NCBI RefSeq assembly: GCF_000367345.1
Contig: NZ_BARE01000012.1
Span: forward strand, 62,001 to 126,000
DNA: 64,000 bases
Source: Sphingobium xenophagum NBRC 107872
Lineage (GTDB): Bacteria; Pseudomonadota; Alphaproteobacteria; Sphingomonadales; Sphingomonadaceae
Direction: 5' to 3'
Made by a program: the position numbers and the translations under genes. Of the stretch, positions 7,859 through 63,726 are shown one piece after another. Position 1 is the stretch's first letter. The number at the start of each line of letters is the position of its first letter. Under the pieces are notes generated by a model, which was not told the origin of the DNA, did not search any database, and saw only the letters and a program-made list of their open reading frames with translations.

Positions 7859-7874
7859 CCTGTCCTTGTAGAGG
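7859..7874. promoter_or_regulatory. Degenerate copy of the CCTAYC-N4-GRWAGG dyad before the F420 operon
   Basis: CCTGTC-CTTG-TAGAGG lies 41 bases before the ATG of the first F420-operon gene. The left half fits the repeated dyad well; the right half matches at only four of six positions. It also overlaps one arm of the putative terminator, so this is one of the weakest members of the set. Confidence 0.35.
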
Positions 7875-7908
7875 GGGGGAGGCGGGCAGGTCGCTCACCC
7901 CTCCCCTC
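7870..7908 (-). terminator. Imperfect G/C-rich hairpin after the TonB receptor gene
   Basis: The arms AGAGGGGGGAGG (7870-7881) and CCTCCCCTCT (7899-7908) pair with two extra bases bulged, 12 bases past the receptor stop codon. There is no clear T-tract. It plausibly separates the receptor transcript from the F420 operon. Confidence 0.45.
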
Positions 7909-7919
7909 TCACGGGTGCG

Positions 7920-10301
7920 TCAGAACGTATATTTGGCCGTGACGCCCCACGTCCGCGGATCGCCGGCATAGACCGAACTGGTGGGGAAGGACGGCAGAAG
8001 AACGCTGGAAGCCGAGAAATATTTCTCGTTGAAGAGGTTCTTCACATAAATGCCCAGATCTAGGCCCGTGCCGCCTATCCCGCGCCAATCCAGACGCGCG
8101 TTGGCCAGTTGGTAACCCGGCAGCTTTTCGCCATTCTGGCCGCCAAAATCGTCGGTCATGAACAGGTCGGCGTTGACCACCACATCGCCGTCAGCCGGGC
8201 GGACCGGCAGGGTCCAGCTCACGCTGGCCGTGCCGGAGAAACTGGGCGAATATTTGTTGATCTGGCCCTCGCCCAGCACGATGGTCGATGGCAGTCCCGC
8301 AGGAATGGTCAGGCTTTCCACCTTCACATTGGTATAGGCGGCATTGAAACCGACGGTGAGGCTGCGCACGGGGCTGATGGACGCCTCCAGTTCGACGCCC
8401 CAGATCCGCAGATCGGCGACGTTGGCGGCCAGGGAGCCGTTGGTCGGCGAATCCGGCGTGCCGTTCGGGACGGTCGTCTGCGTGTTCAGGAACTGAAGCG
8501 CATTCTTATATTTGCTGTAATAGGCGGCCAGATTGAGACGCCCGCGCGCGGACCCGACATGATAGTCATATTTGGAGCCGATCTCGACGTCCGTGATTGT
8601 TTCCTCCCCCGTCTTCTGGAAGGGACGAAGGTCTGCGCAGACGCCCCCGGTCGCCACGCAGGCCGGGTTCGTGCCGCCTGTGGTAAAGGGCGTTTCGAAG
8701 AGCGGCGTGTTCACATTGACGCCCCGATAGCCCCGTCGCGACACGATATAGAGCAGCCAGTCCGGGGTCGCCTTATAATCAAGGCCGATGGTCCAGCTCG
8801 GCTCCTCGCCCTTGTTGGATACGGTGCCGACGCCGTCGGCCAGACCCAGGGCTGCCGTGCTGAGGCAGGTGGATTCGTCGACATAGGCCGTGCCGATGGT
8901 GCCGCCGCAAGCCGACACTTTGTCCCAGCTGTAGCGCGCGCCGAGATTGAGCTTCAGCTTGTCGGTGAATTCATAACCGATCTGACCGTAGACCGCCCAG
9001 TTCTTGTTGCGGACATGGGCTGACACCGCAGGCGCCGGAACTCCGCCCAACGAAAATGCCGTGAACTGCGATCCACTGGGGCCGTGAGGCTTATCATTAT
9101 TATAGAAGGCGCCGACGATGAAGTTGAACGACCCAAAATCGCCCAGCAACTGGGTTTCATTTGTCAGATATTGCCGATCCAGCACGGAAGACGCCGTGAA
9201 AAGGGTAAACGGCACGGCCGAGGGCGCGGGAGACGGCAGACCCGTGGGGATTTGCAGTTGCGGCAGCCCGCCGGTGTTGATCAACTGATAGCTGTAATTC
9301 TTTCGATAGCCAAAAATGTTGCGTAGCGTCAGATCGCCGAAGCTGAAGGACGTGTCATTGGTGATCGCCGTGGTCTTGCGATAGGCCGCGCCGCCGTTGA
9401 TGCCGCCGTCGAACGACCCGCGACGATTGGCTTTCTGTGCCTGCAAAGCGGCCTGCACCTGTGGCTCGACAACCCCCAGGCCCAGCGCGGCAAAGGGGAA
9501 ATTCTCGCGCAGCAGATAGAGGCCGCCGGCGAGTTCGTCGCCTTTGAAATATTCATAGATGGTGGTGCTCTTGAGGCCCTCGAACGGCTCGACCAGCAGC
9601 GAGAGACGGTAGGCGTCCTGATGGATATTATCGAATCCCGGGCCGCCGTCAAAGGCGATCGTCCGGGGATCCTGACGGCGGATCTGGCCTGCAGCGCGGA
9701 AAGCGACCTTATCCTCGATAATCGGAATATTCACCGCGCCTTCCAGTTCGCGATAATCGAAGCGTCCATAGGTGCCCTCGACATAGCCTTCGAAGGCGTA
9801 GCTCGGCTTCTGGCTGCCGATCACGACCGCGCCGCCCAAAGTGTTGCGGCCGAACAGCGTCCCCTGCGGCCCCTTTAGCACCTGAATGCTGCCAATGTCA
9901 TAAGTCGGGACGTTCGATCCGACCGAGGGCAAAGGGGTGTCGTTGAGATAGATGACAACGCCGGGAGTCACCTCGCCCAGGGGCAACTGGCCAATGCCGC
10001 GCAGGGTCAGCGCGACATTGTCCTTGCCCCCTTCGGAGGAGAAGGTGAAGCCGGGGGCGATCGTTTTAACATCGCTTACCGTCTGGACGGTGCTGCGTTC
10101 CAGCGCCTCTGATGAAAAGGCGGAAATGGAAACCGAAACGTCCTGCAGTCGTTCTTCCCGGCGGCGAGCCGTGACAACTATGTCACCGGCATTCGCACTA
10201 TCCGCCTGCGGCGCGGCCGAAGCGACGAACTGCGCCCATGAGGGAAATGCCACCGCTGCGGCGCTCGCAACCAATGCCAGTTTCAGTGCGGCCAATCGCA
10301 T
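7920..10301 (-). CDS. TonB-dependent outer-membrane receptor
   Basis: A 793-residue outer-membrane transporter. Residues 1-23 form a signal peptide ending SWAQ. A TonB-box-like DIVVTARRREE follows, then a plug domain (QTVSDVKTIAPGF, LRGIG, and IQVLKGPQGTLFGRNTLGGAV) and a 22-strand-type barrel ending in aromatic F (TWGVTAKYTF). Sphingomonads use many such receptors for catabolic substrates as well as iron. The gene has its own leader with a hairpin and a clean copy of the repeated dyad, and it sits between the racemase/BKACE pair and the F420 operon. It probably imports the island's substrate; this is inference. Confidence 0.95.
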   Translation of the reverse strand: MRLAALKLALVASAAAVAFPSWAQFVASAAPQADSANAGDIVVTARRREERLQDVSVSISAFSSEALERSTVQTVSDVKTIAPGFTFSSEGGKDNVALTLRGIGQLPLGEVTPGVVIYLNDTPLPSVGSNVPTYDIGSIQVLKGPQGTLFGRNTLGGAVVIGSQKPSYAFEGYVEGTYGRFDYRELEGAVNIPIIEDKVAFRAAGQIRRQDPRTIAFDGGPGFDNIHQDAYRLSLLVEPFEGLKSTTIYEYFKGDELAGGLYLLRENFPFAALGLGVVEPQVQAALQAQKANRRGSFDGGINGGAAYRKTTAITNDTSFSFGDLTLRNIFGYRKNYSYQLINTGGLPQLQIPTGLPSPAPSAVPFTLFTASSVLDRQYLTNETQLLGDFGSFNFIVGAFYNNDKPHGPSGSQFTAFSLGGVPAPAVSAHVRNKNWAVYGQIGYEFTDKLKLNLGARYSWDKVSACGGTIGTAYVDESTCLSTAALGLADGVGTVSNKGEEPSWTIGLDYKATPDWLLYIVSRRGYRGVNVNTPLFETPFTTGGTNPACVATGGVCADLRPFQKTGEETITDVEIGSKYDYHVGSARGRLNLAAYYSKYKNALQFLNTQTTVPNGTPDSPTNGSLAANVADLRIWGVELEASISPVRSLTVGFNAAYTNVKVESLTIPAGLPSTIVLGEGQINKYSPSFSGTASVSWTLPVRPADGDVVVNADLFMTDDFGGQNGEKLPGYQLANARLDWRGIGGTGLDLGIYVKNLFNEKYFSASSVLLPSFPTSSVYAGDPRTWGVTAKYTF

Positions 10302-10336
10302 AAATATCCTCCCAGTTAATCAGTTTTTCCGTGTGA

Positions 10337-10353
10337 CCTGCGTGCGACGCAGG
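10337..10353 (-). other. Leader hairpin of the TonB receptor gene
   Basis: CCTGCGT-GCG-ACGCAGG is a perfect 7-base stem with a 3-base loop, 36 bases before the receptor ATG and outside its ribosome site. It may affect mRNA stability; no known riboswitch architecture is visible. Confidence 0.4.
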
Positions 10354-10396
10354 CCTGATCGCCTGTGGCAAAATCGACATTAGTCGCGATTTACCA

Positions 10397-10412
10397 CCTA
10401 TCGCTGGACAGG
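10397..10412. promoter_or_regulatory. CCTATC-GCTG-GACAGG dyad upstream of the TonB receptor
   Basis: A clean member of the repeated 16-base dyad, with 5 of 6 half-site pairs symmetric, 96 bases before the receptor ATG. It is the main feature of the 288-base gap 10302-10589, which otherwise holds only two hairpins. Confidence 0.7.
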
Positions 10413-10453
10413 ATTCATATCGACCAGAAATAATTGATCTCGATGTGGCATTT

Positions 10454-10589: not shown

Positions 10590-11684
10590 TTAAGACCAAG
10601 CCGCGATCAGGTCCGCCGCCGACGCGACGGACGGCTCGCCAATGGCGCCCGCATCGAGGGACAAGCGGGGTGCCGGCGATGGCTGGACCACTCCATGACG
10701 CTGTACGAAAGTCGCCCGCGCTTCATTATGCGCGTGCCGGGGCGCTTCCTCCATCGACAGAACCGGCGTCACGCAAGCATCGCTCGCAGCAAACAGAGCG
10801 GCCCACTCATCCCGGCTCTTGGTCAGAAATGCCGCGGCCAATTCAACCTGCATCGCAGGCCAGCCTTCACGATCATTCTGGTCATAACATCTGTCGGAGA
10901 GACCTAATCCGTCCACCATCTGGGCAAAGAATTTCGGTTCCAGACATCCCACCGCGACATGCCGACCGTCGGCGCATTCGTAACAGCGGTAGAAGGGCGC
11001 CGCACCGTCCAGCAGATTGGAGCCGGGCGCATCTTCCCACAAACCCTTGGGCTGCCATGCGTAGAATAGGCTCATCAACGACGCGACGCCGTCCGTGATA
11101 CAGGCGTCGACGACCTGCCCCCGGCCCGTCCGTTGCGCCGCCAGCAGTGCGCTCAACAGACCAAAGATCAAGAACATGGCGCCGCCGCCATAATCGCCTA
11201 CCAGATTGAGCGGCACTGGCGGCGTACCCTGTCGCTCTCCCATCGCGTGGAGCGCGCCGGTGATTGACAGATAATTGATGTCATGGCCCGCTCGCAGGGC
11301 AAGCGGCCCGGACTGGCCCCAGCCTGTCATTCGGCCGAACACGAACCGCGGATTGCGCGCGAGGCAGACATCGGGACCGACGCCGAGGCGTTCCATGACG
11401 CCGGGCCTGTATCCCTCAATCAGTCCGTCCGCCCGCTCGATCAACGCGAGCAACTGTTCGCGATCGGCGTCCTGCTTGAGATCGAGATGGGTCACGACCC
11501 GGCTGCGGTGCAGGATGTCGCCGCCGACGTCATCCCAGTCCCCCGCCGCGGCCGATGGCGGCCGGGCGATGCGGACGATCTCGGCGCCCATATCGGCGAG
11601 CAGCATCGCCGCGAGCGGTACGGGACCGATCGCGTCGATCTCCAGCAGGCGAATACCGGCCAGCGGCCCGCTTTTTTCCGTCAT
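10590..11684 (-). CDS. Alpha-methylacyl-CoA racemase (CaiB/BaiF family III fold)
   Basis: A 364-residue member of the type III CoA-transferase fold, closest by eye to 2-methylacyl-CoA racemases. It has the AGHDINY motif with the catalytic His (H134) and the LNLVGDYGGG motif with the catalytic Asp (D164), the pair known from mycobacterial MCR. It also has GQVVDA, NLLDG and SDACVTPVL segments as in MCR. Such enzymes epimerise 2R/2S-methylacyl-CoA so that beta-oxidation of sterol, bile acid or isoprenoid side chains can proceed. Its ATG overlaps the stop codon of the upstream BKACE gene by one base, so the two are coupled. A CoA-transferase role is the alternative. Confidence 0.85.
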   Translation of the reverse strand: MTEKSGPLAGIRLLEIDAIGPVPLAAMLLADMGAEIVRIARPPSAAAGDWDDVGGDILHRSRVVTHLDLKQDADREQLLALIERADGLIEGYRPGVMERLGVGPDVCLARNPRFVFGRMTGWGQSGPLALRAGHDINYLSITGALHAMGERQGTPPVPLNLVGDYGGGAMFLIFGLLSALLAAQRTGRGQVVDACITDGVASLMSLFYAWQPKGLWEDAPGSNLLDGAAPFYRCYECADGRHVAVGCLEPKFFAQMVDGLGLSDRCYDQNDREGWPAMQVELAAAFLTKSRDEWAALFAASDACVTPVLSMEEAPRHAHNEARATFVQRHGVVQPSPAPRLSLDAGAIGEPSVASAADLIAAWS

Positions 11685-12613
11685 CAGATATTCGTCCGGT
11701 CTGCGCCCTTGAGGTCCAGCATGGCGCGCGCCTCATCGGGCGTGGCGATTTCAAGACCCATGCCTTCGACGATCTGCCGCGCAGTCTTCACCTGCTCTGC
11801 ATTGGTCTCGGCGAGCCGGCCCGGGCCGCCCCACAGCGAATCCTCCAGACCGATACGGACATTGCCACCCATGGATGCCGCCATGGCGACGATGCTCATC
11901 TGACGCGCACCGGCCCCCAGCACGGACCATTCATATTGGTCGCCGAACAGCCGGTCGGCGGTCCGCTTCATATGCATGATATCGTCGGGGTGGCTGCCGA
12001 TGCCGCCCAATATGCCGAAGCAGGTCTGGATGAACAGCGGCGCCTTGACGAGGCCGCGATCGAGAAAATATTTCAGGTTATAGAGATGGCTGGTGTCATA
12101 GCATTCGAATTCGAAGCGCGTGCCCAGCGGCGACAAGGTCGTCAGTAGATGTTCGATGTCGGCATAGGTGTTCTTGAACACCAGGTCGCGCGATGCTTCG
12201 AGCGCGGCGGGTTCCCAGTCATGCTTGAACGACTTGTAGCGATCCAGCATCGGGAACAGACCAAAGCCCATGGTCCCCATATTGAGGCTGGCCACTTCCG
12301 GGGCGAAAGTCTGGGCGGGACGGATCCGTTCCTGCACCGTCATGGAGGGGTGCCCGCCCGTGGTCAGGTTCAAGACGGCGTCGCTGCGCTGCTTGATGAC
12401 CTTGAGGAAGGGTTCGAACAGCTCGGGATTCTGGTCCGGCCGCCCATCGACGGGATTGCGCGCATGCAGGTGGATGATGGCCGCGCCCGCCTCCGCCGCG
12501 CCGACCGCCGATTCCGCGATCTCCTCCGCCGTCACGGGCAGATAGGGCGACATGGAGGGCGTGTGGATTGCGCCAGTAATCGCGCAGCTGATGATGACCT
12601 TGCGTTTTGCCAT
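11684..12613 (-). CDS. Beta-keto acid cleavage enzyme (BKACE, DUF849 family)
   Basis: A 309-residue TIM-barrel, zinc-dependent enzyme. It carries the metal-binding IIHLHARNP motif (H48, H50), NLTTGG, and the C-terminal VRIGLEDSLW segment with the conserved Glu. The family condenses a beta-keto acid with acetyl-CoA and splits it into acetoacetate and a new acyl-CoA, as in lysine fermentation (Kce), with many orphan substrates. The start MAKRKVIISCAITGA has GGAAATATC before the ATG. With the racemase next to it, a role in trimming a keto acid intermediate of the degraded compound is plausible. Confidence 0.9.
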   Translation of the reverse strand: MAKRKVIISCAITGAIHTPSMSPYLPVTAEEIAESAVGAAEAGAAIIHLHARNPVDGRPDQNPELFEPFLKVIKQRSDAVLNLTTGGHPSMTVQERIRPAQTFAPEVASLNMGTMGFGLFPMLDRYKSFKHDWEPAALEASRDLVFKNTYADIEHLLTTLSPLGTRFEFECYDTSHLYNLKYFLDRGLVKAPLFIQTCFGILGGIGSHPDDIMHMKRTADRLFGDQYEWSVLGAGARQMSIVAMAASMGGNVRIGLEDSLWGGPGRLAETNAEQVKTARQIVEGMGLEIATPDEARAMLDLKGADRTNI

Positions 12614-12630: not shown

Positions 12631-12669
12631 AGATTGCGCCGGTCGCAGGTTGCGCGAACCGCGCAATCT
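12631..12669 (-). other. Inverted repeat in the BKACE leader
   Basis: AGATTGCGC (12631-12639) and GCGCAATCT (12661-12669) form a perfect 9-base inverted repeat spaced by 21 bases, which itself contains GGTT/AACC arms. It lies between the dyad at 12667-12682 and the BKACE ribosome site, and its outer arm overlaps the left half of that dyad. Confidence 0.45.
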
Positions 12670-12682
12670 ATCCTTCGATAGG
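12667..12682. promoter_or_regulatory. TCTATC-CTTC-GATAGG dyad upstream of BKACE
   Basis: A strong member of the repeated dyad, with 5 of 6 half-site positions symmetric, 54 bases before the BKACE ATG and just beyond the LuxR gene stop codon. It is placed to control the BKACE-racemase pair. Confidence 0.7.
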
Positions 12683-15464: not shown

Positions 15465-15480
15465 CCTATCGGCAGATAGG
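15465..15480. promoter_or_regulatory. Perfect CCTATC-GGCA-GATAGG dyad between regulator and dehydrogenase genes
   Basis: This copy is perfectly symmetric in both half-sites. It lies 87 bases before the LuxR-type regulator start and 115 bases before the start at 15595, so it could serve both divergent transcripts and give autoregulation. Confidence 0.75.
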
Positions 15481-17955: not shown

Positions 17956-18783
17956 TCAGAGTTTCCAGCCCCCGCCCGCGACGATCACCTCGCCGGTGAT
18001 ATAATCGGCTTCGGGCAGGCAGAGCAGGTAGACGGCGCCGGCGGCTTCTTCCGGCGTGCCGGCACGGCCCAGCGGAATGCCCTTTTCCATGGCTTCCAAT
18101 ATTTCGTCGCTGACGCCGGCCTTGATGTCCCGACCCTTGACGCTGATGGTCGTGCTGCCCGCCTCGCCCGCGGTCATGCGCGTCATGATGGCGCCGAAAG
18201 CCACCGCGTTGACGGTGACATTATGTCGCCCCCATTCCTTCATCACCGTCTTGGTGAGACCGACGATCCCCGCCTTGCCCGCCGCATAGCCCGACTGACC
18301 GGCATTGCCGCCAAGACCCGCCACGGACGATATATTGATGACCGTGCGGCGTGTGGGACGACCATGTTCGGCGGCCTCCTTCTTCGCCGTGGCGGCGATT
18401 ACCGGTTGCGCGGCGCGCAATATACGGAAAGGGGCATTGAGATGAACGTCGAGCATGGCCATCCACTGCTCGTCGCTCGTCTTTTGAAGAACCGAGTCCC
18501 AGGCATAGCCCGCATTGTTCACGATGATGTCGATCGTGCCGAAATGCGCGACCGCCGCTCCTACAAATTTGTCGCCGAAATCGGCATCCGTCACGTCGCC
18601 CACGCACACCACGGCGCGGACGCCAAGGCTTTCGATTTCACTCGCCGTCGCCTTTGCCACATCCTCGTCCAGGTCGTTCACCACGACATGGGCGCCGGCG
18701 CTTGCCAGTTTCAGCGCGATAGCCTTCCCAATGCCCCGTCCGGAGCCGGACACCAGTGCGATCTTGCCATCCAATATATTCAC
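17956..18783 (-). CDS. SDR-family oxidoreductase (FabG/17-beta-HSD-like)
   Basis: A 275-residue short-chain dehydrogenase with SGSGRGIG (12-19), a VVNDLDED segment after beta-2 that suggests NAD preference, IIVNNAGYAWD, NISSVAGLGG and Y-x3-K in GYAAGKAG. The GTG start overlaps the stop codon of the MaoC gene (GTGA). Its layout is close to the dehydrogenase part of peroxisomal multifunctional enzyme type 2. With the adjoining MaoC hydratase it could oxidise a 3-hydroxyacyl-CoA with R stereochemistry. It is the last gene of the minus-strand beta-oxidation operon 24238 to 17956. Confidence 0.87.
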   Translation of the reverse strand: MNILDGKIALVSGSGRGIGKAIALKLASAGAHVVVNDLDEDVAKATASEIESLGVRAVVCVGDVTDADFGDKFVGAAVAHFGTIDIIVNNAGYAWDSVLQKTSDEQWMAMLDVHLNAPFRILRAAQPVIAATAKKEAAEHGRPTRRTVINISSVAGLGGNAGQSGYAAGKAGIVGLTKTVMKEWGRHNVTVNAVAFGAIMTRMTAGEAGSTTISVKGRDIKAGVSDEILEAMEKGIPLGRAGTPEEAAGAVYLLCLPEADYITGEVIVAGGGWKL

Positions 18784-19658
18784 TTCAATACGTCCCGTTC
18801 TTCCTTGAAACCACCGATGCGGGCCTCGCCGCCATCGATGACGATGCTATTCCTGTCAGGCACGCTAGCCCGAAACGATACGGCGTCGCCCCGGCGCCAG
18901 ATTTCCGTCCGAACCGTTTCACCCGGCCAGACCGGCGCGGTGAAACGCACCCGCATGTCGGTCAACAAACCCGGATCGCCGCCGCAGCACAGATGGATCA
19001 ACGCGCGCCCAACCAGACCCATGGTGGCAAGGCCATGCAGTATCGGCCGATCGAAACCCGCCGCCTGCGCCGTGCCTTGATCGATATGCAGGGGGTTGCG
19101 GTCGCCGGTCAGGCGATAGAGCATCGCCTGATTGGAAGCCGTCGGAAGGTCAAGACAGGCGTCCGCGGGCGCATCCGGCATGACGACCGGCGCCGGTCCG
19201 TCCAGATCACGCGGCCCGCCAAAACCACCCGCTCCTCGCAAGACCCACACTTCCTCCATCTCGGCGATCAGCCGGTCCGTCGGCGTGGTGATCACGCGTT
19301 TTGCCCGCACAAGGGCGGGCTTGCCTACCCCCTTATCGGCGAGACCGACAATCTCGATCCGGCCGTTCACCAGTTGACCCAGTTCGAGCGGCCGGAACAG
19401 TTTCAGCGTCTGTTCGCCATGCAGGATGCGCGGCCAGTCCCAGCCCAGTTCCGGCGCCATCGGCCAGAAGCCAGGTGTTCCCAGAACCAGCGCCATGGTC
19501 GGCAACACGGCCTGATCGCGTTCGAAGACCAGATGCCGTTCATCGATCGCGCCCAGCCCAGCGCCGACACCCAGCGCGTAGAGAATAGCGGATCGCGGAT
19601 CGCAAACATCCTGTGCTTCCGGCACCCGGAAGCCGCGCAATCGTTCGACATCAAGCAT
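18780..19658 (-). CDS. Double-hotdog MaoC-type enoyl-CoA hydratase
   Basis: About 292 residues, with two hotdog folds as in hydratase 2 of peroxisomal multifunctional enzyme type 2. The C-terminal half carries the hydratase signature YRLTGDRNPLHID (D-x4-H), followed by AGFDRPILHGLATMG. The ATG at 19658 has GGGGGTGGG before it; a GTG nine bases upstream (19667) is an alternative start. The family hydrates trans-2-enoyl-CoA to the 3R-hydroxyacyl-CoA and is common in bile acid and sterol side-chain degradation. It lies 23 bases after the acyl-CoA dehydrogenase and is coupled to the SDR downstream. Confidence 0.88.
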   Translation of the reverse strand: MLDVERLRGFRVPEAQDVCDPRSAILYALGVGAGLGAIDERHLVFERDQAVLPTMALVLGTPGFWPMAPELGWDWPRILHGEQTLKLFRPLELGQLVNGRIEIVGLADKGVGKPALVRAKRVITTPTDRLIAEMEEVWVLRGAGGFGGPRDLDGPAPVVMPDAPADACLDLPTASNQAMLYRLTGDRNPLHIDQGTAQAAGFDRPILHGLATMGLVGRALIHLCCGGDPGLLTDMRVRFTAPVWPGETVRTEIWRRGDAVSFRASVPDRNSIVIDGGEARIGGFKEERDVLK

Positions 19659-19681
19659 TCGACCCACCCCCGGTTTTGCGG

Positions 19682-20839
19682 TCAGGACAGCTTACGCTCG
19701 TCCAGGCCCAGTCCGCGACCGATGATTTCGCGCATGATTTCCGAGGTTCCGGCGAAGATGCGGCTGATGCGGGCGTCAGTATACATGCGGCTGATGCGAT
19801 ATTCTTCCATATAGCCCGCCCCGCCATGAAGCTGGACGCATTCGTCCATCACCCGGCCTTCCAGTTCGCTGGTCAGCAGTTTGGCCGCCGACGCGTCTTC
19901 TGCGGTCAACTCGCCCGCGTTGAGCAGCATCACGCACTGGTCGACATAGGTCTGAAGCGCGTCCAGTTCGGCCCGCATCGAAGCCATCTTGAACCGCGTA
20001 TTCTGGAACGCGCCAATCGGCTTTCCGAAGGCCCGGCGTTCCTTCACATAGTCGAGCGTGATGTCGAATGCGGTCTGCGCCGTCGCCATGAAGCCGATGG
20101 CCGCGACCAGCCGCTCCTGCGCCAGGAAGCGGGCGAGATATTTGAAGCCTTGGGCCGGATCGCCCAGCACATTCCCCTTCGGCACCCTGACATCGTTGAA
20201 GAAGAGCTCGGCCGTGTCCTGCGCCTTGAGCCCCATCTTCGCCAGCTTGCGCCCGCGTTCAAACCCTTCCATGCCGCGTTCGACGACCATAAGGCCCAGA
20301 CCGTGGCGGCTATTGGGGTCGGTCCGCGCGGCCACGACGACCAGATCGGCCAAAATGCCATTGGAAATATAGGTCTTGGCGCCGTTCAACAGCCAATGGT
20401 CGCCCTTGTCCACCGCGCTGGTGCGCATACCCGCCAGGTCGCTGCCGGTGGACGGTTCCGTCATCGCGACGGCCAGAATCTTCTCGCCGCTGACGATGCC
20501 TGGCATCCAGCGGTCCTTCTGTTCGTCGGTGCCGAGCTTGGCGATATAGGGCGCGACCAGATCATTATGCAGGTTGATGTAGAAGCCTATGTCGCCGTGG
20601 CGCATATTCTCCTCGATGATGATCTGCTCGAAGCGGAAATCGTCAATCCCCGCCCCGCCATATTTCTCGTCCGCCCAGGTGCACAGCAAGCCCTGCTCGC
20701 CCGCCTTCAGGAACAGCTCACGGTCGACCATGCCCTGCTCGCGAAAACGTTCGGCGTGAGCGCCCACCTCCGTCGTCATGAACTTGACGACGGAGTCGCG
20801 GAACTGCTCATGCTCCTGCTCGAAAATCAGGCGCTTCAT
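19682..20839 (-). CDS. Acyl-CoA dehydrogenase
   Basis: A 385-residue FAD enzyme with all usual segments: QIIIEENMRHGDIGF, AVAMTEPSTGSDLAG (FAD and substrate contact), YISNG, and the C-terminal QLHGGAGYMEEYRISRMYTDARI followed by IFAGTSEIM. The MCAD-type glutamate next to AGT is replaced by Ala, as in long-chain and isovaleryl-type enzymes, whose base sits elsewhere. The ATG overlaps the stop codon of the fadB-like gene (ATGA). It supplies the first oxidation step of the beta-oxidation operon; chain specificity is unknown. Confidence 0.93.
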   Translation of the reverse strand: MKRLIFEQEHEQFRDSVVKFMTTEVGAHAERFREQGMVDRELFLKAGEQGLLCTWADEKYGGAGIDDFRFEQIIIEENMRHGDIGFYINLHNDLVAPYIAKLGTDEQKDRWMPGIVSGEKILAVAMTEPSTGSDLAGMRTSAVDKGDHWLLNGAKTYISNGILADLVVVAARTDPNSRHGLGLMVVERGMEGFERGRKLAKMGLKAQDTAELFFNDVRVPKGNVLGDPAQGFKYLARFLAQERLVAAIGFMATAQTAFDITLDYVKERRAFGKPIGAFQNTRFKMASMRAELDALQTYVDQCVMLLNAGELTAEDASAAKLLTSELEGRVMDECVQLHGGAGYMEEYRISRMYTDARISRIFAGTSEIMREIIGRGLGLDERKLS

Positions 20840-23004
20840 GCCGGCATTGGCTCCTTGACCCTGGTTTCGCTCGCGGGCGTGTAGAAATCCTCACCCTTTG
20901 CCGCCTTGTCGCGCAGCCATGCGGACGGCAGGAAGCGCGGGCCATAAAGCTGGGCGAGCCTATCGGATTCCTCAACGAACTTCTTAATGCCGATCGTGTC
21001 AATGTAGCTGATCGTCCCGCCGGTCCAGGCCGGGAAACCCCAGCCGTAGATCGCACCCAGATCGGCGTCCTGCGGAGTTTCCAGCACATTTTCCTCCAGG
21101 CAGCGGGCGGTTTCCATCGCCTGCGCATAGAGATAGCGCTTCTTCAGTTCCTCGACATCCCAGTCCTGCTTGACCGGGAAATGATCGGCCAGGCCCTTCC
21201 ACAGATGCTTCTTGCCGCCTTCGGGATAATCATAGAACGCCCCGCCGGTCTTCCGGCCGGACCGGCCGATCTCGTCCTTCATCCGCCGCATGACGGCAGT
21301 GCCTGCGGGTGGCGTATATTTATCGCCTTCCTCGGCGATCGCCTGGTCGACGATCTTGAGCGGCAGGTCGAGCGTCAGTTCGTCCAGCAGCGCCAGCGGC
21401 CCGACCGGCATGCCGACGGCCTTGGCCGCGTTTTCGATCACCGCGGGGGGAACGCCCTCCGCCAGCATCGCCGCGCCTTCGTGGATCAGCATCTGGAACA
21501 CGCGGCTGGTGTAGAAGCCACGGCTGTCGTTGACGACGATCGGCGTCTTGCGCAACTGCGCGATGAAGTCGAGGCCCTTGGCCAGCGTCTCCTTGCTGGT
21601 CTGCTTGCCCATGATGACCTCGACCAGCCCCATGCGGTCGACCGGCGAAAAGAAGTGCAGGCCGATGAACTGGTCCGGGCTCCGCGACGCCTGGGCGAGC
21701 TGCGAGATCGGCAGGGTCGAGGTGTTGGACGCGAAAATGGCCTGTGCCGGCAGCACCGCTTCGGCCTTCTTCGTGGTTTCGGCCTTGATCGCCGTATCCT
21801 CGAACACCGCTTCGACCACCATGTCGCAGCCATCGAGCAGCGCAAAGTCGTCGGTCGGGGTGATGCGGGCGAGCACGGCGTCCGCCTTGTCCTGCGTCAG
21901 CTTGCCCTTTTCGACCAGCTTGCCCAGCACCTTGGCCGAATAGTCCTTGCCCTTCTGCGCGGTCGCGGTGTCGCGGTCGATCAGAACGACGTCGATACCC
22001 GCATTGGCGGACACGAACGCAATGCCCGCGCCCATCATGCCCGCGCCCAGCACGCCCACTTTCTTCGCTTCAAACTTCGGGAAGCCTTCGGGACGACGCG
22101 CGCCCTTTTCGGCCGCCTGCTTCGAAATGAAGGTGGTGCGGATGATGTTGCGCGCGACCGGATCGGTCAGCAGCTTGGCGAAATATTTCCCCTCCACCGC
22201 CAGCGCCTTGTCAAAGGGCAACTGCAAGCCGTGGAACACCGAGTTCAGGATCGCGGCGGGCGCAGGTTGATTGTAACCCCCCTTGGCCAGGCCACCTGTA
22301 TACATCATGTAGGCGGCCGAATCCTCAGGGACGGTCATGCCCTTCTTCTGCGGCGGCGTCCAACCCTTGACATCCCAGGGCTTGACCGGATCCGGCCCGG
22401 TCGCAAGCCACGCCTTGGCCGCGTCGATCAGCTTGTCCGCCGGGACGACCTCGTCCACGATCTTGAGCTTGAGCGCTTCCTGCGGCCCCACCGAGCGGCC
22501 CGACAGCAGCAGGTCCAGCGCGATCTTCATGCCTGCGATAATGCCCAACCGCACGGTGCCGCCCGATCCGGGCAGCAGACCGACATTGACTTCGGGCAAA
22601 CCGACCTGCGCCTTGGCATCATCCGCCAGGATGCGCCGGTGGCACGCCAGCGCCAGCTCGAAACCCCCGCCCAGCGCCAGGCCGTTGATCGCCGCCACCC
22701 AGGGCTTGCCCGATTGTTCGATGGCACGATGCATGTCGGTGGCGCGCTTCGAAAAGGCATAGGCTTCCTGCGGCGTCAGCGTGCCGAACCCGTTCACCAG
22801 CTGCTTGAGGTCCGCACCGGCCATGAACGTCTTCTTGGCCGACGTCAGGATGACGCCCTTGATGCTTTCGTCCGCGACAATCTGCTTCGTCGCCGCTTCC
22901 ATGTCGGCGATGAAAGCGTCGTTGACGACGTTCATCGAGCCTTCGGCGTCGAGGGTCAGGATCGCAAAGCCGTCCTCGGCCTTTTCCAGTCGCATAGTCT
23001 TCAT
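20836..23004 (-). CDS. FadB/FadJ-type multifunctional enoyl-CoA hydratase/3-hydroxyacyl-CoA dehydrogenase
   Basis: A 722-residue two-part enzyme. The N-terminal crotonase domain has both catalytic glutamates, E116 in LGGGFELALA and E138 in GLPEVNVGLLPG. The dehydrogenase domain from about residue 310 has the NAD motif VGVLGAGMMGAGIAF and the catalytic His in GLHFFSPVDRM, and is followed by the paired C-terminal helical repeats. It hydrates 2-enoyl-CoA to the 3S-hydroxyacyl-CoA and oxidises it. The stop overlaps the ATG of the acyl-CoA dehydrogenase. A second in-frame ATG three codons in is possible. Confidence 0.95.
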   Translation of the reverse strand: MKTMRLEKAEDGFAILTLDAEGSMNVVNDAFIADMEAATKQIVADESIKGVILTSAKKTFMAGADLKQLVNGFGTLTPQEAYAFSKRATDMHRAIEQSGKPWVAAINGLALGGGFELALACHRRILADDAKAQVGLPEVNVGLLPGSGGTVRLGIIAGMKIALDLLLSGRSVGPQEALKLKIVDEVVPADKLIDAAKAWLATGPDPVKPWDVKGWTPPQKKGMTVPEDSAAYMMYTGGLAKGGYNQPAPAAILNSVFHGLQLPFDKALAVEGKYFAKLLTDPVARNIIRTTFISKQAAEKGARRPEGFPKFEAKKVGVLGAGMMGAGIAFVSANAGIDVVLIDRDTATAQKGKDYSAKVLGKLVEKGKLTQDKADAVLARITPTDDFALLDGCDMVVEAVFEDTAIKAETTKKAEAVLPAQAIFASNTSTLPISQLAQASRSPDQFIGLHFFSPVDRMGLVEVIMGKQTSKETLAKGLDFIAQLRKTPIVVNDSRGFYTSRVFQMLIHEGAAMLAEGVPPAVIENAAKAVGMPVGPLALLDELTLDLPLKIVDQAIAEEGDKYTPPAGTAVMRRMKDEIGRSGRKTGGAFYDYPEGGKKHLWKGLADHFPVKQDWDVEELKKRYLYAQAMETARCLEENVLETPQDADLGAIYGWGFPAWTGGTISYIDTIGIKKFVEESDRLAQLYGPRFLPSAWLRDKAAKGEDFYTPASETRVKEPMPA

Positions 23005-23035
23005 GGGATGTCCCGCTCTAAAGTTCTGTGCGCGC

Positions 23036-24238
23036 TCAAACGCGCTCGATGATGGCAGCCGTGCCCAGGCCGTTGGCCGCGCACAGGGTGATAAGGCCGG
23101 TCTCCGCGTCGCGCCGCTCCAGCTCGTCCAGCACGGTGCCCAGGATCATCGCGCCGGTCGCGCCCAGCGGATGACCCATCGCGATCGCCCCGCCATTGAC
23201 GTTGATCTTGTCGTCGGGGACATTCAGCTCCCGCTGGAAGCGCATCACCACGCTGGCGAAGGCTTCGTTCAGTTCCCAGAGATCAATATCCTTCTCGGTC
23301 ATGCCGGCCGCCTTGAGCGCCTTGCGAGAGACCGCCGCCGGCGCCGTCAACATGATCGTCGGCTCAGACCCGATATTGGCGTAGGACCGGATGCGACCGC
23401 GCGGCTTGAGGCCTGCCTTTTCCCCAAATTCCTTCGACCCGACAAGAACCAGTCCGGCGCCGTCGACGATACCGGAGCTGTTGCCGCCATGATGGACATA
23501 GTTCAGCTCTTCAATTTCGGGATATTTAGCCTTCACCACTGCCTCGAACCCGGCCTTGCCGAACCCTTCGAAAGCGGGCTTGAGCTTGGCGAGGCTTTCC
23601 AGCGTGGTGCCGGGCCGCATATGCTCATCATGATCGAGCACCACGTCGCCCAGGACATCCTTGATCGGCACGATCGAGTTTTTGAAATAGCCGTTTTCCC
23701 AGGCATGGGCAGCCTTGCGCTGGCTCTCGACGGCGAAATTGTCGACATCCTCGCGCGTGTAGCCGTCCAGGGTAGCGATCAGGTCGGCGCCGATGCCCTG
23801 CGGGGCGTAATAATTGCTGAAGGCGACCGACGGATCCGACGTCCACGCGCCCGAGTCATACCCCATGACCGTGCGGCTCATCGACTCGACGCCACCGCCG
23901 ATGCCGGCCTGGATCATGCCCGAATGAACCTGCGCCGCGATCAGGCTGACGGCGTCCAGGCCGGTGGCGCAGAAGCGATGGATTTGCTGGCCCGCGACCG
24001 TCTGGGCATAGCCGGCCTGCAACACCGCCGCGCGCGCCAGCACGCCGCCCTGTTCACCGACGGGCTGGGCCATGCCGATGATCACATCGTCGAGCAGTCC
24101 AGTGTCGAGATCATTGCGGCTCTGGAGCGCCTTCAACAGCTGCGTCGCCATTTCGACAGAGGTGATCTCGTGCAGCGCGCCATCGGGGCGGCCCTTCCCG
24201 CGCGGCGTCCGGACATGATCGTAGACATAGGCTTCCAT
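23036..24238 (-). CDS. Acetyl-CoA acetyltransferase (thiolase)
   Basis: A 400-residue thiolase with the nucleophilic C90 in RFCATGLDAV, H356 in AIAMGHPLGATGA and C386 in TLCAANGLG. The last motif departs from the usual C-x-G-G-G. It completes beta-oxidation by cleaving 3-ketoacyl-CoA. The chosen ATG at 24238 starts the canonical MEAYVYDHVRTPRGK; the frame is open 25 codons upstream, but that part is not family-like and runs into the divergent promoter. It is first in the operon thiolase-fadB-acyl-CoA dehydrogenase-maoC-SDR. Confidence 0.94.
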   Translation of the reverse strand: MEAYVYDHVRTPRGKGRPDGALHEITSVEMATQLLKALQSRNDLDTGLLDDVIIGMAQPVGEQGGVLARAAVLQAGYAQTVAGQQIHRFCATGLDAVSLIAAQVHSGMIQAGIGGGVESMSRTVMGYDSGAWTSDPSVAFSNYYAPQGIGADLIATLDGYTREDVDNFAVESQRKAAHAWENGYFKNSIVPIKDVLGDVVLDHDEHMRPGTTLESLAKLKPAFEGFGKAGFEAVVKAKYPEIEELNYVHHGGNSSGIVDGAGLVLVGSKEFGEKAGLKPRGRIRSYANIGSEPTIMLTAPAAVSRKALKAAGMTEKDIDLWELNEAFASVVMRFQRELNVPDDKINVNGGAIAMGHPLGATGAMILGTVLDELERRDAETGLITLCAANGLGTAAIIERV

Positions 24239-24304
24239 CGTGAATTCCCGCACAGTGATACAAAATCTCTGCCCTTGCTCTTGGACCCGGAAGGCAAAGC
24301 TGCA

Positions 24305-24320
24305 CCTATCCAACGAAAGG
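24305..24320. promoter_or_regulatory. CCTATC-CAAC-GAAAGG dyad in the divergent beta-oxidation promoter
   Basis: A good member of the repeated dyad, with one mismatch from symmetry. It lies 66 bases before the thiolase ATG and 70 bases before the acyl-CoA synthetase GTG, nearly centred between the two operons. Confidence 0.65.
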
Positions 24321-31111: not shown

Positions 31112-31666
31112 ATGACCCAACTTCATTTCGTCGCCGTTGGCGGCACAATGCGCGCCTATTCCTCCACCGAGCGGGCGCTTCGCAAGGCGCTCGCCATCGC
31201 GGAGGAACGCGGCGCACGCACGACGCTGCTTGCAGGAGCGGACATCGACTTCCCGTCTTACGCGCCCGAAAATCCGGATCGTCCGGATGCGGCACGACAC
31301 TATGTCGACATCCTGCGGTCGGCGGATGCCGTGATCATCGGCTCACCAGGCTATCATGGTGCGATCTCTGGCTTCGTGAAGAATGCGCTCGATTATGTCG
31401 AGGATATGAGCCGCGACGAGCGTTGCTATTTCGATGGTCTTCCCGTCGGCTGCGTGGCGACCGCGGCCGGCTGGCAGGCCGCGGTCGCCACGCTCCAGCA
31501 ACTGCGGGTGATCACCCACGCGCTGCGGGGATGGCCGACGCCGCTGGGCATCGCCATCAACACCATCGGCGGCGAAGGCGACCCGATCGAAAACGCGCCC
31601 ATCCCCGACCAGTTGGGGATGATGGTGGACCAATTGTTCAGTTTCTGCCGACGGCCTGCCCTATAG
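31112..31666 (+). CDS. NAD(P)H-dependent FMN reductase
   Basis: A 184-residue flavodoxin-fold reductase with the phosphate-binding loop GTMRAYSSTERAL, the flavin contact GSPGYHGAISGFVKNALDY and the C-terminal QLGMMVDQL. The start MTQLHF at 31112 lies one base after the preceding stop codon. Such proteins supply reduced FMN or FAD to two-component monooxygenases. It is a natural partner for the HsaA/HpaB-like oxygenases at 49145 and 57522, although neither is adjacent. The last codons overlap a copy of the repeated dyad. Confidence 0.85.
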   Translation: MTQLHFVAVGGTMRAYSSTERALRKALAIAEERGARTTLLAGADIDFPSYAPENPDRPDAARHYVDILRSADAVIIGSPGYHGAISGFVKNALDYVEDMSRDERCYFDGLPVGCVATAAGWQAAVATLQQLRVITHALRGWPTPLGIAINTIGGEGDPIENAPIPDQLGMMVDQLFSFCRRPAL

Positions 31667-31675
31667 TTGGATAGG
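31660..31675. promoter_or_regulatory. CCTATA-GTTG-GATAGG dyad before the second acyl-CoA dehydrogenase operon
   Basis: A member of the repeated dyad with a single departure in the left half. It lies 53 bases before the ATG at 31729 and overlaps the end of the preceding gene. Confidence 0.65.
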
Positions 31676-37694: not shown

Positions 37695-37710
37695 CCTACC
37701 TAATGGAAGG
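37695..37710. promoter_or_regulatory. CCTACC-TAAT-GGAAGG dyad between two NTF2-fold genes
   Basis: A variant of the repeated dyad with half-sites identical to the copy at 63711-63726. It lies 83 bases before the minus-strand ATG at 37612 and 64 bases before the plus-strand ATG at 37775. Confidence 0.55.
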
Positions 37711-37740: not shown

Positions 37741-37752
37741 ATTCTATAGAAT
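37741..37752. promoter_or_regulatory. ATTCTATAGAAT palindrome, candidate GntR operator (copy 1)
   Basis: A perfect 12-base palindrome 22 bases before the ATG at 37775. The identical sequence occurs at 55838-55849, touching the start codon of a GntR gene. Shared use by that repressor is the simplest reading. Confidence 0.65.
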
Positions 37753-40678: not shown

Positions 40679-40694
40679 CCTATCCTTTGGCGGG
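40679..40694. promoter_or_regulatory. CCTATC-CTTT-GGCGGG, partial copy of the repeated dyad
   Basis: The left half-site is perfect; the right half matches at three of six positions. It sits 53 bases before the ATG at 40748, the same distance as at 31660 and 12667, which is why it is kept despite the weak right half. Confidence 0.4.
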
Positions 40695-44172: not shown

Positions 44173-44188
44173 CCTATCCTCTGACAGG
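44173..44188. promoter_or_regulatory. CCTATC-CTCT-GACAGG dyad upstream of the Old Yellow Enzyme gene
   Basis: A clean member of the repeated dyad 61 bases before the ATG at 44112. The 12-base palindrome CATCCGCGGATG (44150-44161) lies between it and the start. Confidence 0.65.
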
Positions 44189-55091: not shown

Positions 55092-55093
55092 TG

Positions 55094-55837: not shown

Positions 55838-55849
55838 ATTCTATAGAAT
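55838..55849. promoter_or_regulatory. ATTCTATAGAAT palindrome, candidate GntR operator (copy 2)
   Basis: A perfect 12-base palindrome immediately before the GntR start codon, identical to the copy at 37741-37752. Any protein bound here would also cover the ribosome-site region, so the promoter must overlap it closely or the transcript is nearly leaderless. Confidence 0.7.
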
Positions 55850-55872: not shown

Positions 55873-55888
55873 CCTCTCCAAGGATAGG
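55873..55888. promoter_or_regulatory. CCTCTC-CAAG-GATAGG dyad upstream of the GntR operon
   Basis: A member of the repeated dyad with one change in the left half. It lies 36 bases before the GntR start and 34 bases before the divergent small gene at 55923, next to the GntR palindrome, so two regulators may act at one promoter. Confidence 0.55.
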
Positions 55889-57521: not shown

Positions 57522-58781
57522 TCATTTCGGTCTCGCCCAGGTCGGGGCCGGCGTGATATCGGGCAGCAGGGCGATATTGGATGGCAGACCGGTGATCGCC
57601 CGGCCATATAGCTCGATGGAAAGCTGTCCGTTCAACGCATTGTGACGGGTGCCGACGCTCAGGTCGCGCCAGATCCGCTGCAAGGGGTTGGAAAGGGCGA
57701 AGGCGCCCGGCCCGGCGACATCCATCAACCGGTTGCCCGCCGCGCGCAGCAATTCCATCGCATAGCCGCAATCGGCCTGGATCCGCGCCTTGTCGAAGCC
57801 GGTGAGCCCGCGGCATTGCGCCGCTTCGTCCAACATCCCGGCGGCACGGCGAACATGCAACCAGGCCGAATCGATCTCCATCGCCGCGCGGCCGGTCATG
57901 CCAACCAGAGCCTCCGAACCGCTCTGCCCGGCATAGGTCCAGCCCGCTATCTGCCGCCTGGGCATCGCCTGGGCTACGCCTTCGAGCAATGCCGTCGCCG
58001 CACCCAGCATCGGCGCGAGCACGCCCAGCGGGAATAGCGGCTCCATCGGCCATCGGTCGCGCGGCTCCAGCCCCTCCATCGCCAGGATCGCCTCGGCCGG
58101 CGGCGTGCGCGACGACCAGAGGATCAGGTTGTCCGGCACGAACAGATCCCGCGCGACGATCATGTTGCTGCCGGAACCGGCCATGCCCGCGACATGCCAA
58201 TTGTCCTCGATCGAACAGGCAGGGTCGCGCAGATCCAGAAATGCCAGAGCCGGTTCAACACCCGCATCCGTTTCGATCATGACGCCGTTCAGCGCCCAAT
58301 CGGCGTGCAGGCACCCCGATCCATAACCCCAGCGCCCCGACACGCGATAGCCGCCCGGCACCGCAACCGCTTTGCCCGAAGGCGCGGAGGCACTGCAAAA
58401 CAGTTCCTCGCCGGTCTGGAACAGCCGCTCCGTCATGGCCGGCGGCAGCGCGAACGCCGTTCCGGTAATTCCTGACAGCAGCCCATAGGACCAGGCAGTG
58501 CCGACGCAGCCTTTGGCCAGTTCGGCAACTGTCTCGATATGGGTGGTCAGCCTGTGGCCTGGCCCACCGGCGCGTTCAGGCGCCGTGATATGGAACAGGC
58601 CGGATGCGCGCAACGCCTCCATCACCGCCGGAACGATCCGCCGCTCGCGCTCGCAGGCGGCGGCATGGTTCTCCAGCAAGGGCCGCAGCGACGCGGCGAC
58701 GACTACAGGGTCCGCCACGAAGGCCACGGGCCGCACGTACGCCGGACGTTCTTCCACCGTTTCAGATCGCATCCGAATCAT
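57522..58781 (-). CDS. HsaA/HpaB-like flavoprotein oxygenase (acyl-CoA dehydrogenase fold)
   Basis: A 419-residue protein from the ATG at 58781 with GGAGA upstream. The 103 codons before it in frame cross the operator region and are not family-like. It shows VMEALRASGLFHITAPERAGGPG, the oxygenase-type strand YRVSGRWGYGSGCLHADWA, HVAGMAGSGSNMIVARDLFVP and a C-terminal IWRDLSVGTRH. These fit two-component flavin hydroxylases and desulfurisation-type enzymes rather than true acyl-CoA dehydrogenases. It is a distant homologue of 49145-50371. Its reduced-flavin supplier is not adjacent. Confidence 0.82.
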   Translation of the reverse strand: MIRMRSETVEERPAYVRPVAFVADPVVVAASLRPLLENHAAACERERRIVPAVMEALRASGLFHITAPERAGGPGHRLTTHIETVAELAKGCVGTAWSYGLLSGITGTAFALPPAMTERLFQTGEELFCSASAPSGKAVAVPGGYRVSGRWGYGSGCLHADWALNGVMIETDAGVEPALAFLDLRDPACSIEDNWHVAGMAGSGSNMIVARDLFVPDNLILWSSRTPPAEAILAMEGLEPRDRWPMEPLFPLGVLAPMLGAATALLEGVAQAMPRRQIAGWTYAGQSGSEALVGMTGRAAMEIDSAWLHVRRAAGMLDEAAQCRGLTGFDKARIQADCGYAMELLRAAGNRLMDVAGPGAFALSNPLQRIWRDLSVGTRHNALNGQLSIELYGRAITGLPSNIALLPDITPAPTWARPK

Positions 58782-58898: not shown

Positions 58899-58914
58899 CC
58901 TGCCTCCCGATAGG
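58899..58914. promoter_or_regulatory. CCTGCC-TCCC-GATAGG, partial copy of the repeated dyad
   Basis: The right half-site is perfect and the left half matches at four of six positions. It lies 84 bases before the SDR start at 58999. Confidence 0.45.
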
Positions 58915-59835: not shown

Positions 59836-59860
59836 CCGGGCAAAAAAAGGGGAAGAGATA

Positions 59861-61438: not shown

Positions 61439-61441
61439 GCG

Positions 61442-62536: not shown

Positions 62537-62551
62537 CGCAGGGATGACCGG

Positions 62552-63694
62552 ATGAGCGACGCCGTCACGGCTTTCCGCGCCGATGTTCCGCAGGCGGCAC
62601 TGGACGATCTGCGCCTCAGGTTGCGCCGTACGCGCTGGCCCGAGGCGGAGACGGTCAGCGACTGGGGTCAGGGCGTCCCGCTGGCGGCGCTGCGCGATCT
62701 GTGCGCCTATTGGGCGGACGGCTATGACTGGCGGCGGTGCGAAGGGGCGCTCAATGCCCTGCCCCAGTTCACCACCGCGATCGATGATCTTTCGATCCAT
62801 TTCATCCATGTACGCAGTCCCCGGCCGGACGCGCTGCCGTTGATCCTGACCCATGGCTGGCCGGGATCGGTGCTGGAGTTTCTGAAGGTGCTCGGCCCGC
62901 TAACCAATCCCGCCGCCCATGGCGCGCCGGACGCGCCAGCCTTCCATGTCGTCATCCCCTCGCTGCCAGGCTACGGCTTTTCGGACAAGCCAACGGCCGC
63001 AGGCTGGGGCGTCGAGAGGATCGCGCAAAGCTGGATCCAGCTCATGCGCCGCCTCGGTTATGACCGCTTCGCCGCGCAGGGCGGCGACTGGGGCGCGGCG
63101 ATCACAACCGCCATCGCCATGGCCGCGCCGCCCGAATGTATCGGTGTCCATCTCAACATGCCGCTGGTATTCCCGGAGGAAAGCGACTTTGCCGACCTGA
63201 CCCCGGCCGAGGCCAAAACGGTCGAGCGGATGCAATATTATCAGGAACATGATTCCGGCTACGCCAAGCTGCAGGGCACCCGACCGCAGACGATCGGCTA
63301 TGGGCTGGCGGACTCGCCCGTGGCGCAAGCCGCCTGGATTTATGAGAAGTTCCAGGCATGGACAGACAATCGCGGCGTGCCGGAGAATGCTCTGACACGG
63401 GACGAAATGCTGGACGTGATCAGCCTCTACTGGCTCACCAACAGCGGCGCGTCGTCCGCGCGGCTCTATTGGGAAAGCGCCAATGCGTTTCAGGCGCGTC
63501 AATTGGACCTGCCGGTCGGCGTCAGCATCTTCGCGCAGGAGATTTTCCGTCCATCACGGCGCTGGGCCGAACGCAGCTACCCGCGTCTCATTCACTGGAA
63601 TGAGCTGGATGTCGGCGGCCATTTCGCCGCCTTCGAGCAGCCGGCGCTGTTTGTCGCGGAATTGCGGGCCTGTTTTGGCGCGATGCGAAGATAG
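62552..63694 (+). CDS. Epoxide hydrolase with EHN domain
   Basis: A 380-residue enzyme with the N-terminal EHN region (residues 1 to about 95, WPEAETVSDWGQGVPL) and an alpha/beta hydrolase domain. Oxyanion motif HGWPGS (101-106), nucleophile D179 in QGGDWGA and a late GGHFAAFEQP with the catalytic His. It opens epoxides to diols through an ester intermediate, as in limonene- and juvenile-hormone-type substrates. It lies 15 bases after the kinase. An epoxide made by the P450 at 52624 could be its substrate. Confidence 0.93.
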   Translation: MSDAVTAFRADVPQAALDDLRLRLRRTRWPEAETVSDWGQGVPLAALRDLCAYWADGYDWRRCEGALNALPQFTTAIDDLSIHFIHVRSPRPDALPLILTHGWPGSVLEFLKVLGPLTNPAAHGAPDAPAFHVVIPSLPGYGFSDKPTAAGWGVERIAQSWIQLMRRLGYDRFAAQGGDWGAAITTAIAMAAPPECIGVHLNMPLVFPEESDFADLTPAEAKTVERMQYYQEHDSGYAKLQGTRPQTIGYGLADSPVAQAAWIYEKFQAWTDNRGVPENALTRDEMLDVISLYWLTNSGASSARLYWESANAFQARQLDLPVGVSIFAQEIFRPSRRWAERSYPRLIHWNELDVGGHFAAFEQPALFVAELRACFGAMRR

Positions 63695-63710
63695 CGCCTG
63701 CTGCAATCTC

Positions 63711-63726
63711 CCTACCACCCGGAAGG
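63711..63726. promoter_or_regulatory. CCTACC-ACCC-GGAAGG dyad upstream of the second kinase gene
   Basis: A variant of the repeated dyad with half-sites identical to those at 37695-37710. It lies 107 bases before the ATG at 63834, within the 139-base gap after the epoxide hydrolase gene, which holds nothing else recognisable. Confidence 0.55.

Follow-up and report, generated by a model that had tools for sequence, protein, structure and literature searches.

The window analyzed here is a stretch of 64,000 nucleotides from the 4.49-Mb draft genome of Sphingobium xenophagum NBRC 107872, corresponding to C127:62001-126000, where C127 is the contig; site coordinates are window positions unless prefixed C127. 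It carries genes for F420 synthesis and CoA-ester oxidation, a gene for a MalT-like LuxR regulator, and repeated copies of a 16-bp dyad with two 6-base arms separated by 4 bases. The refined consensus of this dyad is CCTRTC-N4-GAYAGG, and positions beyond the arms carry little information. The principal genes and dyad copies are collected in Table 1. Gene borders are those of a simple gene caller run on the whole contig, which missed some genes, for example a CofC-like open reading frame (ORF) near 1532-2107. Related genomes are numbered with the prefix G and loci encoding homologues with the prefix L.

Table 1. Regulator gene, dyad copies and selected operons of the window, with strand, setting and conservation
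Feature	Position	Strand	Setting or content	Conservation
MalT-like LuxR regulator, 893 aa	12697..15378	-	P-loop STAND NTPase PF25199; MalT TPR PF17874 (458-785); C-terminal GerE helix-turn-helix PF00196 (832-885)	
Perfect dyad	15465..15480	.	86 bp to regulator start 15378; 114 bp to divergent Zn-dehydrogenase start 15595	Perfect arms in 11/11 related Sphingobium clusters
Dyad	10397..10412	-	95 bp before TonB receptor gene 7920-10301	At least 19 bits in 8/11 clusters; not in G069, G123; G035 without orthologue
Dyad	12667..12682	-	53 bp before BKACE 11684-12613, then CoA-transferase III 10590-11684	
Dyad	24305..24320	.	Between thiolase/FadB/acyl-CoA dehydrogenase/MaoC operon (-) and AMP-ligase gene 24391 (+)	Kept in 11/11 clusters
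Dyad	31660..31675	+	53 bp before acyl-CoA dehydrogenase 31729; overlaps final 7 nt of FMN reductase gene	
Dyad	44173..44188	-	60 bp before Old Yellow Enzyme gene 42964-44112	
Dyad	55873..55888	.	Between GntR-acyl-CoA dehydrogenase-P450 operon (-) and ORF 56040 (+)	Three relatives; weaker in G123
Variant dyad CCTACC-N4-GGAAGG	37695..37710	.	Between two SnoaL-like genes	Kept in 11 relatives
Weaker dyad	58899..58914	.	Between HsaA-like 57522-58772 (-) and SDR gene 58999 (+)	Kept in 3 relatives; weaker form in G123
Weaker dyad	7859..7874	-	46 bp before luciferase-like oxidoreductase 6811-7812, F420 genes behind	Arms identical in 7 relatives
Weak, half-conserved dyad	40679..40694	+	53 bp before SnoaL-like 40748	CCTATC arm kept in 10/11
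Weak, doubtful dyad	63711..63726	+	107 bp before gene 63834	Orthologous stretch only in G120, G127, G071
F420 genes	2104..6814	-	CofD 2104-3030, F420 ligase 3027-3764, F420_oxidored 3775-4431, FbiC-type radical SAM 4475-6814 (Pfam)	
Beta-oxidation operon	17956..24253	-	SDR, MaoC, acyl-CoA dehydrogenase, FadB-like, thiolase (Pfam)	

A search of both strands for CCTAYC-N4-GRWAGG with no more than one mismatch gave 24 matches at 13 places in the window, against a mean of 0.88 and a maximum of 5 in 100 dinucleotide shuffles. The first-pass annotation had listed twelve positions for this pattern; the sequence at each is as it was written, and ten of the twelve fall within the one-mismatch list, with 7859 and 40679 requiring more mismatches. 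Three places that it had not named, 506, 1506 and 25391, are added by the list, the last lying inside the AMP-ligase gene. Compared with the symmetric core CCTATC-N4-GATAGG, the copy at 15465 has no mismatch, those at 10397, 12667, 24305, 31660, 44173 and 55873 have one, and among the weaker copies 58899 has two and 7859, 37695, 40679 and 63711 have three. A site matrix was built from 13 sites within one mismatch. Since some of these training sites are from C127 itself, counts on that contig are not independent, and the tests in other genomes therefore carry the argument. With this matrix, C127:37-166 kb contained 19 sites of at least 12 bits, 13 of them in the 7.2% of the interval that is intergenic, and the other 72 kb of the contig contained one. 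Spacers of 0 to 12 bases other than 4 gave 0 to 4 intergenic matches each, compared with the 13 for a spacer of 4, so the constant 6-4-6 spacing that had been claimed held up. The same interval scanned with 59 permuted palindromic matrices averaged 0.42 intergenic matches, with a maximum of 3. A chance palindrome was ruled out by the window enrichment, the intergenic and permuted-matrix control and the spacer test.

The window does not contain the whole pattern, which spans the contig from C127:37946 to roughly 165 kb. Thirteen places in the whole genome lie within one mismatch of the symmetric core, and nine of these are clustered within C127:37946-164395 (126.5 kb; binomial P 7e-12 for an interval whose limits were set by the outermost sites). 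The remaining four fall on C68, C122, C128 and C133. On C68 a further, weaker site is flanked by a thiolase/AMP-ligase pair and an MFS gene (L025, C68:3403-3418), and on C128 a TetR gene follows the site at a distance of 23 bp (L027, C128:10164-10179). The C68 and C128 sites may be further members of the regulon and the remaining off-island sites may be due to chance.

Conservation was examined at 14 sites in 11 related Sphingobium clusters. Pooled over these, substitutions were found at 30 of 1224 arm positions (2.5%), 77 of 408 spacer positions (18.9%) and 779 of 2448 flanking positions (31.8%). Because the arms are conserved while the flanks differ freely, a mobile repeat was also ruled out. 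The arms CCTATA and GATAGG at 31660, for example, were kept in 11 of 11 clusters around a spacer that varied (GTTG, GTCC, GGAC, GAGC, GGAG), and the variant at 37695 improves to 12.4 bits in four relatives, as CCTACC-N4-GAAAGG. Orthologues of the 44173 site scored 19.2 bits in seven relatives with differing spacers and 13.3 in G069 and G123, with no site in G126. The site at 63711 is the least certain, since its orthologous stretch is present only in three close relatives. Orthologues with less than 70% protein identity or fewer than 28 of 56 ungapped identical positions (five rows) were dropped from this set, a filter that leans toward conservation. An unfiltered comparison found sites in three of the five (G007 at 10397; G069 and G123 at 44173). 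At 7859 in G007 it showed a different exact site, and at 44173 in G126 none. Beyond these clusters, homologues of at least 60% identity with upstream DNA present were preceded by sites of at least 12 bits for BKACE (34/38), thiolase (19/19) and AMP-ligase (15/16). The acyl-CoA dehydrogenase paralogues were mixed: gene 53928 has no site in the clade of the window, yet its orthologues elsewhere have one, and upstream sites were found for 38 of 54 and 39 of 54 homologues in two overlapping tables that are not independent. The first-pass annotation had proposed comparing the dyad with coding and shuffled sequence and following it in relatives. Neither comparison speaks against the pattern, as the sites are mainly intergenic, occur far above shuffles and permuted matrices, and are kept at orthologous promoters.

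The regulator encoded between two of these sites matches the MalT structure 8bob (E 2.8e-35). Its P-loop is APAGSGKT, and the motif [AG]x4GK[ST] was found within the first 120 residues of 49 of 59 homologues. The STAND NTPase, the MalT TPR region, the C-terminal GerE helix-turn-helix (HTH) and the length of about 900 residues together give the full architecture of a MalT-like LuxR regulator (LAL). MalT of Escherichia coli binds short boxes at maltose genes and has the same STAND NTPase, TPR and GerE domains, but MalT orthology is not indicated, the regulator scoring 245.7 bits against the NCBIfam MalT equivalog NF003420 with its cut-off of 537. The GerE-type HTH is likewise shared with the LuxR-type quorum regulators, from which this protein differs in that a Pfam scan found no autoinducer-binding domain in it, and it is thus not a quorum-sensing LuxR protein by domain content. 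The C-terminal HTH, KWYMQQIYDKLGVRRR, is almost invariant among the sphingomonad homologues and reads KWYMQQIYxKLGVRRR in Burkholderia.

In order to compare the distribution of regulator and site, exact matches were counted, because one-mismatch counting, run on 120 relatives, gave 14-71 matches per Sphingobium genome with the control pattern alone. The regulator (E 1e-150) was present in 17 of 94 Sphingobium genomes. Exact sites averaged 5.35 in these 17 and 0.90 in the 77 genomes without it (P 9e-11), and a reversed control pattern showed no such difference (0.76 with the regulator, 1.22 without). We also looked upstream of the regulator gene itself in the homologue loci, of which 56 encode regulator relatives and 52 were usable (L145, L151, L157 and L158 were excluded from this count, their match stopping short of the gene start). 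Forty-seven of the 52 have a site of at least 12 bits within 500 bp upstream, located at 83-108 bp from the start in 44 of the 47, and a perfect core was present in 36 of the 52. At a threshold of 16 bits, sites preceded 43 of 52 regulator genes; of the other large ORFs in those loci, 30 of 459 had one, and some of these 30 are expected members of the regulon.

Perfect sites were found even for homologues of 30-31% identity, namely in two Burkholderia species, in B. sp. SRS-46 and in Paraburkholderia solitsugae (four loci: L160, L162, L166, L167) and in Caballeronia SBC2 (L168), and a Massilia locus (L170) has a site of 17.1 bits. The Burkholderia and Paraburkholderia loci share almost no island genes at 40% identity; the neighbors of the Caballeronia gene encode an LLM oxidoreductase, a flavin reductase, a maleylacetate reductase and a dioxygenase. 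Across 63 homologues, an own-promoter site of at least 13 bits, a threshold picked after the own-promoter results had been seen, accompanied 51 of the 55 that carry the HTH signature KWY[ML]QQ..KLGVRRR and one of the eight that do not. What speaks most strongly for a link between the two is that the site precedes the regulator's own gene, even in distant Burkholderia and Paraburkholderia, and that it follows the recognition helix.

Several results weigh against that link. Among the 77 Sphingobium genomes that lack the regulator, six contain 3-4 exact matches, and with one mismatch allowed the regulator-bearing G069 shows no excess (45 versus 45 for the control), while G014, G047 and G052, which lack the regulator, show excesses of 29-32. 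The island gene for acyl-CoA dehydrogenase 31729 is present in the same 17 of 94 genomes as the regulator, so that co-occurrence within the genus cannot by itself separate the regulator from the island; the distant taxa can. Four of the 55 signature-bearing homologues (L144, L147, L153, L163) have no own-promoter site, with sites of at least 12 bits elsewhere in each locus, some of which may be chance. Two members of the Burkholderiales, Hydrogenophaga L163 (32%) and Cupriavidus L171 (28.7%, no signature), are without an own-promoter site, and L159 lacks the signature yet has a site of 14.1 bits. Finally, the homologue counts are not independent, since many of the homologues are close relatives.

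Some regulator loci showed further features. G020 has two regulator paralogues (50-53%), each with tandem dyads exactly 26 bp apart (C31:14221-14262; C124:9470-9511), which suggests cooperative, higher-order binding. A metagenome-assembled genome of Nitratireductor (L155), whose regulator is 36% identical, has perfect dyads at 8327 and 12692, the latter 51 bp before an acyl-CoA dehydrogenase gene. The regulator gene of Sphingobium sp. Ant17 is divided between two overlapping frames (G005:C10:39461-42138), and the upstream operator is intact.

Alignment of the 47 regulator promoters on the dyad revealed TTGC 9 bases past it (T in 39, T in 41, G in 42 and C in 38 of the 47) and, at index 49-52, a -10 block rich in A and T, consistent with a spacing of 17 bases to TTGC as the -35. 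As this -35 and -10 pair lies just downstream of the dyad, a basal level of expression plus positive feedback is predicted for the regulator's own promoter. No fixed -35 (TTG at index 25) emerged at the enzyme promoters: two of 42 oriented sites had one, one of these being the regulator's own promoter, and this lack fits promoters that depend on the dyad. In the pooled promoters, of which 13 of 14 belong to genes other than the regulator's, conservation rises again in a second block at index 35-41, with substitution of 0.20-0.28 versus 0.32-0.53 on either side, and the -10-like block at the enzyme promoters starts about 20 bp past the dyad. The center of the dyad would therefore be near -40, the position at which an activator substitutes for contact with a -35, and judged by layout the enzyme promoters look activator-dependent. 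Another perfect palindrome, ATTCTATAGAAT, has exactly two copies in the window (37741-37752 and 55838-55849; 0.02 expected at one mismatch) and none elsewhere on C127. Both lie between the dyad and the start, at the promoters of SnoaL and GntR. The relatives compared there keep the palindrome, which may be a -10 element or an operator used by the GntR protein.

The first-pass annotation had called the regulon undescribed, and in agreement with this no description of such an operator or of the regulator was found in the literature searched, mostly at the abstract level and including searches for six site strings. The lux box is about 20 bp, and a half-site of the form CCTGT resembles it; the dyad here is 16 bp. 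Among the closest known systems is AlkS of Pseudomonas putida GPo1 and Alcanivorax, described in a review as a LuxR/MalT activator with a 20-bp inverted repeat, alkane oxidation targets and positive feedback (PMC8784404). By that description, both systems have a MalT-like LuxR regulator and one inverted-repeat operator at catabolic operons and at the regulator's own gene, as seen here at the enzyme promoters, at 15465 and in 47 of 52 homologues. They differ in the operator, here a 16-bp dyad in which 6-4-6 is the sole enriched spacing and the 13 training sites hold low information beyond the arms, and in the targets, here an F420-linked CoA-ester island with no alkane monooxygenase found: no AlkB-type membrane monooxygenase domain was detected among the 60 window proteins scanned, and no CYP153 model among the NCBIfam hits of the P450. 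Other regulators of steroid catabolism include EdcR and TeiR/TesR, of which TeiR is called LuxR-type (PMC6895838, PMC8700777). The EdcR palindrome as given in these sources, TnnCnnTACnAnTnGTAnnGnnA, is unrelated to the dyad, and the work on testosterone in N. tardaugens reports no regulator near its SD cluster.

These results point to the dyad as, very probably, the operator of the MalT-like LuxR regulator, which would activate its own gene and the surrounding catabolic operons. We favor this because of the enrichment, fixed spacing, intergenic placement, arm conservation, genome co-occurrence and the own-gene site in homologues that are distant but share the recognition helix. We infer binding, activation and an inducer from sequence, activation because of the promoter layout and the analogy to MalT and AlkS. 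As in those two proteins, an inducer, perhaps the substrate or a CoA ester, might act with ATP to switch the STAND NTPase to an oligomer, the paired C-terminal HTHs of which would sit on the two half-sites. The dyad would stand in for the -35 box at the enzyme promoters, and the regulator's own gene would have basal expression plus positive feedback.

TetR-type repressors use short palindromes, and the island encodes several TetR, GntR and AraC regulators, any of which might use the dyad as a repressor's operator. One of them is TetR 48517-49140, which was found in 15 of the 17 regulator-bearing genomes and, rather than GntR, AraC or the second TetR, was the rival searched for across the genus. 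At E 1e-30 it is missing from both G020 and G024, and G020 nevertheless holds more exact sites (11) than any other genome, so the site does not follow the TetR gene. At 40% identity or more, this TetR was found in three of the 56 regulator loci (flanks of up to 10 kb, many shorter), GntR 55094 in one, AraC 37005 in one and the other three island regulators in none, compared with the site at 47 of 52 regulator promoters, and the site is retained in Burkholderia and Paraburkholderia, where none of the island regulators lies close by. We consider such a repressor quite improbable. It is also unlikely, if somewhat less so, that the MalT-like regulator binds the dyad mainly to repress, or only to control itself, leaving the enzyme operons to other island regulators. 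The own-promoter site is indeed the most widely conserved copy across taxa, and GntR, TetR and AraC genes are at hand, but the BKACE, thiolase and AMP-ligase promoters keep their sites across genera. MalT, moreover, is an activator. AlkS, too, is described as an activator (PMC8784404).

The 6-4-6 arrangement has good hairpin geometry and most sites precede start codons, which would suit a 6-bp stem and 4-base loop acting in leader transcripts as an attenuator, terminator or protein-binding hairpin. Mismatches that would break the stem are nevertheless conserved (CCTATA/GATAGG and CCTTTC/GATAGG, each in 11 of 11), and at several places the dyad lies between divergent genes. Transcription from the conserved -10 block or from the -35/-10 pair would not include the dyad, which lies upstream of both, and a role as RNA appears very improbable indeed.

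Besides the genes in Table 1, the island encodes an F420-dependent LLM oxidoreductase (524-1444, by the curated model TIGR03619) and another luciferase-like oxidoreductase, BKACE, a set that is meta-cleavage-like by domain (dioxygenase, FAH, hydrolase), a Rieske oxygenase, a P450, a PQQ dehydrogenase and an epoxide hydrolase. An FAD protein adjoining the F420 genes (C127:60795-62450, window start to 450, minus strand) matches the 3-oxosteroid 1-dehydrogenase (KstD) 7p18 (E 1.4e-82). HsaA-like proteins are encoded at 49145 and 57522, and the latter (57522-58772) matches XiaF and 3-HSA hydroxylase. F420 synthesis, CoA-ester oxidation, BKACE and the KstD- and HsaA-like enzymes together suggest degradation of a polycyclic compound; from the KstD homologue and the HsaA-like proteins our guess is a steroid- or terpenoid-like substrate. 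The proposal that the dyad defines a regulon is upheld by its enrichment, intergenic placement, spacing and conservation, whereas a single pathway uniting all of the marked operons is only suggested, by their co-location and co-inheritance. An island core with five dyads of at least 18 bits is also present on the Novosphingobium resinovorum plasmid pSA2 (L173; 961 kb), and since this plasmid is typed as conjugative, the regulon could move as a unit.

The regulator, its proposed operator and the target list are directly usable, as they show which genes of the 130-kb island belong together. The operator lets the regulon be traced in other genomes and is a basis for reporters with which to find the inducer, and hence the substrate. 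A broader reading, which we put forward tentatively as a real possibility, is that the HTH-operator code, KWYMQQIYDKLGVRRR reading CCTATC-N4-GATAGG, may have stayed fixed from Sphingomonadales to Burkholderiales with the regulated genes completely replaced, and that in sphingomonads it may serve a portable, inducer-gated regulon coupling F420 synthesis to the breakdown of polycyclic compounds. The system offers a clear case of a regulator with a seemingly frozen DNA code while the content of its regulon was exchanged, and a lead on the role of F420 in sphingomonads.

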